From Mechercharimyces sp. CAU 1602 (lineage in GTDB: Bacteria > Bacillota > Bacilli > Thermoactinomycetales > JANTPT01), in contig NZ_JANTPT010000001.1 of assembly GCF_024753565.1 (NCBI RefSeq), positions 248,001 through 312,000 on the forward strand: a DNA stretch of 64,000 bases, written 5' to 3'. Both the position numbers and the translations under genes were made by a program. Position 1 is the stretch's first letter, and every line of letters begins with the position of its first letter. Below the pieces are notes generated by a model, which saw only the letters and a program-made list of their open reading frames with translations, searched no databases and was not told the DNA's origin. Shown piece by piece: positions 41,098-43,012 of the stretch.

Positions 41098-41210
41098 GAG
41101 AGGGAATGGAGTAAGAAGAGAAGAATATAATAAAGATGTCGATCTTCTGATTTTCGAGTTACTATACAACTATTACATTACAATAACGTAGGGTTCCAGG
41201 AGGTTTGCAG

Positions 41211-42530
41211 ATGATAACAGTTTATCCTGAAAAAGCAGGAGAAATTATTCGTCGAATTAGAAAAGAAAAAGGATTGCGTCTTGAAGATGTGGCAGATGAC
41301 AATATTTCACCAGCGACAGTTTCCAATATTGAACGTGGTGTTCCTCATGTGTTGCCGGCTAAGGTGGCATATCTAATGGACAAGCTGTCGATTAATCAAG
41401 CTGATCTCAGCGCGCGTATGATGGGTGTGGAACAGGAACTTGGCTTTATGGAATTAAAAATGACATCGATTGAATCGTTGTTAGATCAGGGGAATTACGA
41501 CGTAGCCGAGAAAGGATTGCGCCAATTTGACGGGCTGGGGACGGAGCATCCGTTGTCTGCTATGGTTTGCTACCTTAAAGGTAAGCTGTTCATTTCGAAA
41601 AAAAACCTATTACGTGCGGAAAAAGAGTTTTTCAATGCTATACGATTAGCAGAGCGTAATCACAATGTAATAGACGTGGATGCCTATAACAGTTTAAGTT
41701 TTATAGCATATTTTAATAATGACTTGGAGTCAGCCTTAAAATATGTAAATAAAGGGTTGGATAGGTTTAGTATAAATGGTGATCGTGATCACCTGTATGA
41801 TGTTCTTATTATAAATAAAATAGCGTATCTGGAGAAATTAGATCGAATTGGTGAAGCGATATCGATTATCGGTGAGGTATGGGATCGCAAAGAGGATATT
41901 AAAAAGCCTGATTTATTGCTTCATTTGTATCATTTGAAAGTAAATCTTCTTTGTAAGACGGGATATTATGAAGAAGCGATAGAAGTTGGACTTGAAGGCA
42001 TTCATCGAGCGAGACTGACAAATGAGTATATTCGTATCCATCATATTTGGGATTCGCTTGGGGGTGTTTTCCTGAGAGTAAGTGATTTAGATAGCGCTGA
42101 AGTATGTTTGGAGCATGCGCTGTCACTTGAAGGGTTAATAAAAACTAAAAATTATTTTGTTACCACTTTAATCAAAAAAGGTATTTTACATATGAGAAGG
42201 GGTGAGCAAGAACAAGCTGACAAGTTCCTACATAGGGCTATTTCGCTAGGTAAAGAGGAAAAGGCAGATGTTTACTTACTGGATGCGCTAGCCACTATGG
42301 GCGATCTAAGGGTGAAGCAAATAAGGTATGATGAGTCGGTTGTTTATTATCGACAAGCACTAAGAATAGCTGAGAGATTAAAATTTAAACATAAACAACA
42401 TTCAATACTATTCCGCATTCTATTGTCTTTACAGGAAACAGGCTCGGAAGAATTTTCGACCGAGTTAACGAATATGTTTGAAGTTCAAAAAGAATTAAAG
42501 GAGAATCCAATGTTCAGTGAAATCATTTAA
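41211..42530 (+). CDS. HTH-TPR peptide-responsive regulator (RRNPP type)
   Basis: About 439 residues. Residues 5-65 are an XRE-type helix-turn-helix: EIIRRIRKEKGLRLEDVADD, then ISPATVSNIERG. The rest is a chain of TPR helices (for example LRAEKEFFNAIRLAERN, LESALKYVNKGLDRF, YDESVVYYRQALRIAERL), about seven to nine repeats. Size and layout match NprR/PlcR-like RRNPP regulators, in which the TPR groove binds a re-imported peptide and the HTH binds DNA. ATG 41211 is eight bases after AGGAGG. The small peptide gene starts inside its last codons, the usual layout for regulator and pheromone. It lies between yrrI and alaS, a place without such a gene in B. subtilis, so it is probably an insertion. 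Confidence 0.85.
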   Translation: MITVYPEKAGEIIRRIRKEKGLRLEDVADDNISPATVSNIERGVPHVLPAKVAYLMDKLSINQADLSARMMGVEQELGFMELKMTSIESLLDQGNYDVAEKGLRQFDGLGTEHPLSAMVCYLKGKLFISKKNLLRAEKEFFNAIRLAERNHNVIDVDAYNSLSFIAYFNNDLESALKYVNKGLDRFSINGDRDHLYDVLIINKIAYLEKLDRIGEAISIIGEVWDRKEDIKKPDLLLHLYHLKVNLLCKTGYYEEAIEVGLEGIHRARLTNEYIRIHHIWDSLGGVFLRVSDLDSAEVCLEHALSLEGLIKTKNYFVTTLIKKGILHMRRGEQEQADKFLHRAISLGKEEKADVYLLDALATMGDLRVKQIRYDESVVYYRQALRIAERLKFKHKQHSILFRILLSLQETGSEEFSTELTNMFEVQKELKENPMFSEII

Positions 42531-42639
42531 AATTTTATTCGTGGTAGTTATTTTCTCCTTTGGATGTATGACACTTCTATTGTCATTGAACTCTTATGAG
42601 TTAACAGACATAGATAAAGGGGATCCGAGCATATCTTAA
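42517..42639 (+). CDS. Candidate secreted signal pre-peptide of the RRNPP regulator
   Basis: A 40-residue product from GTG 42517, overlapping the regulator stop by 14 bases in another frame. It begins basic (MKSFK), continues with a hydrophobic export segment (ILFVVVIFSFGCMTLLLSL) and ends in a short polar tail (NSYELTDIDKGDPSIS). This is the layout of Phr, NprX and PapR precursors, in which the last 5-8 residues are the mature signal. AAAGGAG is 13 bases upstream, rather far, so translation may depend on coupling to the regulator. A terminator follows nine bases after the stop, so regulator and peptide form one transcript. The mature peptide and its import are inferred. Confidence 0.75.
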   Translation: MKSFKILFVVVIFSFGCMTLLLSLNSYELTDIDKGDPSIS

Positions 42640-42647
42640 ATTTAGGA

Positions 42648-42684
42648 AATAGAATCCATCTTCGTGTGAGATGGATTCTATTTT
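42648..42684 (+). terminator. Terminator of the regulator-peptide operon
   Basis: AATAGAATCCATCT (42648-42661) pairs perfectly with AGATGGATTCTATT (42669-42682), then TT. It ends on the -35 of the alaS promoter. Confidence 0.85.
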
Positions 42685-42716: not shown

Positions 42717-43012
42717 ACAACGTATAGGAAGATGATACTTAACAATTCGATGATGAGACCGAAGTACATGTAGCAACCGACAGAGAGAAGGGCCCATACT
42801 CTCTTATAAATAAAGGGAGAGTGTGGCTGGAAGGCCTTTTCGGTAGATGCACATGGAAAGCCAGTCTCTGAGTGCAGGTTAAACACCTGCCGGTAGCGAT
42901 GCCGTTATGAAATCAAGTGATTCATGTACTTAAGACCGAAGTGTGTGAATAAGCAGGGTGGTACCGCGGGAAACCTCTCGTCCCTATACAGGATGAAGGT
43001 TTTTTTTATTTG
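42717..43012 (+). promoter_or_regulatory. T-box leader of alaS, specifier GCC
   Basis: Stem I has GAGAC-CGAAGTA-CATG facing CATG-GAAAGCCA-GTCTC, giving specifier GCC (Ala, 42860-42862) in the same frame as in the hisS leader. The T-box core GGTGGTACCGCGGG is at 42957-42970 and its UGGU matches A73 of tRNA-Ala. The terminator stem ACCT...AGGT with TTTTTTT ends near 43008. Uncharged tRNA-Ala should switch alaS on. Confidence 0.93.

Follow-up and report, generated by a model that had tools for sequence, protein, structure and literature searches.

A highly likely RRNPP-type receptor-propeptide pair in Mechercharimyces sp. CAU 1602 and the recurrence of its two-gene layout across the Thermoactinomycetales

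The described system that best matches, in structure, the locus presented here is NprR-NprX of the Bacillus cereus group, in which a receptor with an HTH domain and nine TPRs is followed immediately downstream by its propeptide gene and the pheromone is SKPDIVG. Rap-Phr systems likewise pair a receptor of the TPR fold with a downstream propeptide. PlcR-PapR also resembles the locus in being an HTH and TPR transcription factor with a propeptide gene; PlcR has five TPRs (PMC12700828), and mature PapR (PapR7) is the C-terminal heptapeptide ADLPFEF, whose fourth residue from the end is proline (PMC4701985). The closest precedent for expansion throughout a lineage is AloR-AloP of the Paenibacillaceae, compared here by description: as in the present case, it is an expanded family of HTH-TPR receptors, mostly with a short downstream propeptide and with some orphans, and its mature signal is C-terminal. 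Alo propeptides are 32-50 aa in length, the mature AloP13 signal is SHGRGG, and a search of >38,000 genomes found AloR essentially only in Paenibacillaceae (PMC7425212). Candidate RRNPP systems in Thermoactinomycetaceae have been counted in a genome-wide survey, with four biosynthetic clusters near such systems (PMC10075063); these candidates probably include relatives of the receptor family described below, and the main text of the survey presents no receptor, peptide motif or layout. In those parts of the literature searched, no description of the peptides of these candidates was found, and cell-cell signalling in the group was without a description other than that one survey count.

The window analyzed here is a stretch of 64,000 nucleotides of the Mechercharimyces sp. 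CAU 1602 genome (contig NZ_JANTPT010000001.1, positions 248,001 to 312,000 of the forward strand). Numbered from the first base of the window, the features of the locus are as follows.

41198..41203, + strand: Shine-Dalgarno sequence AGGAGG of the receptor gene, 7 nt before its ATG (sequence).
41211..42530, + strand: receptor gene, encoding a 439-aa protein with an N-terminal HTH and nine TPR hairpins (ORF, Pfam, AlphaFold2, fold comparison).
42497..42503, + strand: Shine-Dalgarno sequence AAAGGAG of the propeptide gene, inside K-E codons of the receptor and 13 nt before the GTG; in the same place in close paralogs.
42517..42639, + strand: propeptide gene, 40 aa, GTG start, MKSFK followed by a hydrophobic export segment and a polar tail (ORF, family comparison).
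42517..42530, + strand: 14-nt overlap of the receptor stop region with the propeptide start (sequence); the offset, -13, is the one seen most often in the family.
42616..42636, + strand: predicted mature pheromone KGDPSIS, the C-terminal heptapeptide, with GDPSIS or DPSIS as further possibilities, from the family motif and repeat units.
42646..42684, + strand: hairpin that probably terminates the two-gene unit (folding).
42741..42988, + strand: alaS T-box leader (RF00230), the downstream border, outside the signalling unit.

The receptor ORF extends from ATG 41211 to a stop codon at 42528-42530 and was matched by Pfam to an N-terminal HTH and to TPR families, in keeping with a preliminary description of this DNA, which had reported an HTH-plus-TPR regulator ending inside a 40-residue frame. 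The AlphaFold2 model of the receptor (mean pLDDT 94.4, pTM 0.87) consists of the HTH and nine helical hairpins, the first of which is degenerate. When solved structures were ranked against this model by VIA-align, NprR (5dbk) was found at the top with Z 27.3 over 347 residues at 12% identity, followed by Rap in peptide complex (Rap-CSF, 4gyo) with Z 26.8; the NprR-NprX complex 4gpk scored Z 25.8. However, the eukaryotic LGN, a TPR protein outside RRNPP, came near NprR in fold score (Z 26.5 vs 27.3), and LGN proteins were placed ahead of NprR in the E-value order of Foldseek. Because LGN scores almost equal those of NprR, fold alone is no proof of RRNPP membership, and the assignment is therefore based on fold, HTH and peptide gene jointly. 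The most conserved part of the receptor was found to be its HTH residues, which are near-invariant across the family. This region resembles chains of Rgg2 and Rgg3 (named from their PDB codes, PMC9765709) weakly when searched as a single protein and better as a profile; NprR was absent among the 60 profile matches listed for the receptor, which were mostly other TPR proteins.

With an HTH and nine TPRs, the first degenerate in the model, the receptor has the composition of the NprR subfamily. It differs from PlcR, with five TPRs, in its nine helical hairpins and from Rap, which is without an HTH or other DNA-binding domain, in having an HTH. NprR itself differs in its low identity (12-13% to the solved chains over the aligned TPR part) and in the sequence of its pheromone, and the present receptor, by contrast to NprR-NprX, belongs to a large paralogous family within one genome. 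Its length of 439 aa, with a TPR domain of peptide-binding type (Pfam and model), falls inside the RRNPP (RRNPPA) range of 250-500 aa, and the 40-aa ORF directly adjacent to it, which recurs in homologs, lies within the 10-100 aa set for propeptides. Thus, we consider it highly likely that the locus is an RRNPP-type receptor-propeptide pair; the regulator and signal-peptide pair proposed in the preliminary description is supported by recurrence in homologs and by the NprR/Rap fold.

The propeptide ORF runs from GTG 42517 to TAA 42639 in a frame different from that of the receptor, and its first 14 bases (42517-42530) form the overlap noted previously. The basic start, hydrophobic segment and polar tail that had been read from the sequence were all recognized: the product begins with the basic MKSFK, continues with a hydrophobic segment of ~19 residues (peak 13-residue hydropathy about 2.8), and then reads NSYELTDIDKGDPSIS, with KGDPSIS as its tail. 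The GTG start and the 13-nt spacer are slightly unfavourable. A shared terminator had also been proposed and agrees with a hairpin 3' of the propeptide stop (-21.4 kcal/mol, z -5.7), although its U tail is just 4 in length.

To describe how often such peptide genes recur, 141 distinct homologous receptors from 42 Thermoactinomycetales genomes were compiled; these were the best listed matches, so the counts describe that sample, and the family tree was a quick one. A propeptide was scored as a short ORF with an N-terminal part hydrophobic by hydropathy that overlapped or abutted the receptor 3' end. By this approach, a hydrophobic-leader ORF was found at the 3' end of 76 of the 141 receptors compared to 11 of 219 unrelated control genes, and one of the latter 11 was a true family peptide belonging to a neighbouring family gene (L044, minus strand). 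Propeptide starts were at offset -13 in 28 cases and -16 in 27, i.e., 55/76. A Shine-Dalgarno-like sequence was present within the last codons of the receptor in 62/76 receptors with a peptide vs 11/65 without one. With the first seven codons set aside, related peptide pairs had a pS of 0.52 and a pN of 0.28, values that point to purifying selection. These comparisons argue that the pairing of receptor and peptide is more than chance; it is not universal, because 65/141 receptors were without a propeptide by the detection criteria. The preliminary description had staked its reading on conservation of the peptide frame beside orthologous regulators, and the place of the start, the ribosome-binding site and the motif at the C-terminus were found to recur across the order. 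That the overlapping ORF is an untranslated by-product of the conserved C-terminal codons of the receptor is scarcely credible: its start and Shine-Dalgarno sequence do lie inside receptor coding sequence and would be partly conserved through the receptor, but the motif, the repeats and pN<pS are all beyond the overlap and the Shine-Dalgarno sequence is mostly missing from peptide-less receptors.

The propeptide tails were found to share a common format. A [DEN]P pair was present in the last 10 residues of 56/76 tails compared to 13.4 +/- 3.2 for shuffled sequences, and the proline was exactly fourth from last in 51 of these 56. With any preceding residue, a Pxxx-stop ending was observed in 67/76, mostly as [S/G/D][E/D/N]Pxxx-stop. 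The ending [DEN]Pxxx-stop was found in 48 family ORFs vs 1/219 controls, the latter being a family peptide. The window tail KGDPSIS matches this format, its nearest paralog tails being RAEPSKS and SAEPSST, and PapR ADLPFEF corresponds in length and proline position to the xx[DEN]Pxxx-type tails. Several propeptides carry tandem units in 2-7 copies (QSEPGGL x4, NSEPGGL x3, SEDPGMS x3, SAFPGPT-type x6-7 and GDPIHT x2), which suggest that one unit comprises some seven residues. KGDPSIS, the C-terminal heptapeptide, is probably the mature signal, a refinement to about the last 7 residues of an earlier placement within the last 5-8. Apparently, the peptide format is specific to this lineage.

These features of the tail also bear on whether the small ORF instead encodes a membrane-acting small protein, such as a toxin or a membrane peptide that modulates the receptor, controlled by the overlapping regulator. 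The ~19-residue hydrophobic segment, the size of 40 aa and the two-gene layout, similar to that of toxin-antitoxin systems, would suit such a protein, but conservation is at the extreme C-terminus rather than in the hydrophobic segment, the tandem tails of several propeptides fit a released signal but not a toxin acting in the membrane, and the receptor fold is of the NprR/Rap peptide-receptor type. We therefore regard a membrane-acting product as improbable compared to a pheromone precursor.

Relatives were also compared for co-varying tails, a check that had been suggested beforehand. Receptor distance was found to correlate with tail distance (rho 0.25, a value reached in 0/400 permutations), and no such correlation was seen for leader distance (rho -0.04). 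Receptor divergence that tracks the tail and not the leader would be predicted for a receptor and tail that act as partners, with a contribution from shared descent. Several top positions of mutual-information covariation between receptor and tail were located in helices 194-209 and 233-249, in a raw ranking that still includes phylogeny. A functional receptor whose own peptide gene is decaying, and which senses paralog tails (RAEPSKS, SAEPSST, STPSE, ELDPSFP), appears very improbable; numerous family receptors are without a peptide gene, the tail core PS is common to paralogs of the same clade and the start is GTG, but the frame is intact and the conserved place of the Shine-Dalgarno sequence, the start offset and the proline position have all been kept.

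Five receptors for which no propeptide gene was detected (L042, L121, L133, L070 and L101) were observed to end in pheromone-like C-termini (LHSDPPGG, LHSDPPGS, IADPPTD, TDPEPDS), which could be built-in ligands. In the AlphaFold2 model of L042 this tail had a pLDDT of about 55, and its place is therefore not shown by the model.

The host genome (2.93 Mb) contained 13 matches to the receptor, of which 11 were strong. Homologs were detected in 42/42 sampled genomes of the order, covering 27 genera, with a maximum of 25 per genome. Across 300 evenly sampled genomes of the class, a match at E<=1e-30 was found in 27/27 genomes from the order and in 1/273 others, that one being marginal; named Thermoactinomycetales genomes in a second collection included Kroppenstedtia, Melghirimyces, Thermoactinomyces, Laceyella, Shimazuella and others. 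A single-protein search of a general genome-contig collection gave no receptor relative, and phage records gave none and plasmid records one distant relative. In the sample examined, the receptor subfamily is, as judged by sequence matches, confined to the Thermoactinomycetales.

The receptor and peptide genes had been described as a cassette inserted between yrrI and alaS. The alaS T-box was matched over its full length (E 4e-19; 84.7 bits, below the gathering score of 93). In 24/29 other genomes of the order yrrI was found upstream of the alaS leader, and in 0/29 was a receptor gene present <=1.5 kb upstream of alaS. The receptor (37.7% GC) and peptide ORF (31.7%) are AT-richer than the window (44.0%). 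The yrrI-alaS order elsewhere and the AT-rich cassette therefore indicate an insertion at the yrrI/alaS site, a reading that is well supported by these genome comparisons. No direct repeats of >=8 bases linking the two intergenic flanks of the cassette and no inverted repeat upstream of the receptor were found. By contrast to several Alo loci, which have a downstream spo0E-like target (PMC7425212), none was seen at the loci here; a spo0E-like neighbour sought beside the window's receptor was not found, and no neighbouring gene is an obvious target, alaS being equipped with a T-box leader of its own. Just past the window end, a truncated receptor-like stretch with an internal TGA (L013, G000:C1:312395-312946) was observed, probably a decayed paralog.

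Receptor and propeptide genes may be co-transcribed and translationally coupled. By analogy to known RRNPP systems, whose propeptides are exported by Sec, the propeptide would leave the cell via its hydrophobic leader, be trimmed extracellularly to roughly KGDPSIS and be re-imported by the oligopeptide permease (Opp); the peptide would then bind the TPR groove, altering DNA binding by the HTH and thereby transcription. OppA-type binding proteins in the host genome gave 7 matches at 6 places. The two-gene cassette with matching peptide tails is found in numerous copies throughout the order, and the pair is therefore very probably one of the channels of a peptide communication system that spans the order, in which each pair is probably a separate channel, as the paralog tails have diverged. 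A broader proposal, tentative and on balance doubtful, is that of an RRNPP subfamily specific to the order and with a signal grammar of its own, comprising heptapeptide tails in which proline is the fourth residue from the end, numerous receptor-signal channels in each cell, orphan receptors listening to others, and, in a few cases (L042, L121, L133, L070, L101), a receptor with a possible built-in ligand (SDPPGG, ADPPTD, TDPEPDS). The preliminary description had considered the pair likely to be new, and this stands for the description, the peptide and the genome; the pair is one of a large family and not a lone one, Thermoactinomycetaceae candidates had already been counted (PMC10075063), and the newness does not certainly extend to the subfamily. 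Exact short peptides (KGDPSIS, and others for the paralogs) are thereby predicted to serve this group of spore-formers as private signals, and the roughly one dozen receptors of a 2.9-Mb genome, many with matched tails, form a natural set for the study of partner change between TPR receptor and peptide.

Several further observations were made on the paralogs and their surroundings. A paralog with tail KTEPIVR (L287, G000:C1:352000-363000) lies beside prophage tail, holin and amidase genes and also near actin-like, FtsK-like and Replic_Relax genes, so that this receptor-peptide pair is probably carried by a mobile element. A distant paralog with tail YYEPDGP (L288, G000:C1:1147000-1158000) adjoins an actin-like gene and a weak match to a type IV secretion pilin, and may be part of a conjugative element. 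Upstream of a close receptor paralog, L282:15-1535 (G000:C1) encodes a protein in which DYNPPEYVPRT-type repeats occur five times, together with hydrophobic segments and, at the C-terminus, a Colicin-DNase/WHH nuclease domain. A promoter-region motif, ATTyCCA-N17-TAnnAT, was detected before many receptors of the order (60/125 upstream regions over threshold vs 27 in one shuffled control) and was not evident upstream of the window's receptor copy; it may be a receptor site or a promoter variant with an unusual -35 element. Finally, SEPGGL/SQPGGL-type systems were observed in five genomes (L028, L033, L032, L035, L038), and this locus looks syntenic across genera because the genes ~80-170 bp downstream mostly share the N-terminus IIEFIQKSEKKTPVKVHIKG.
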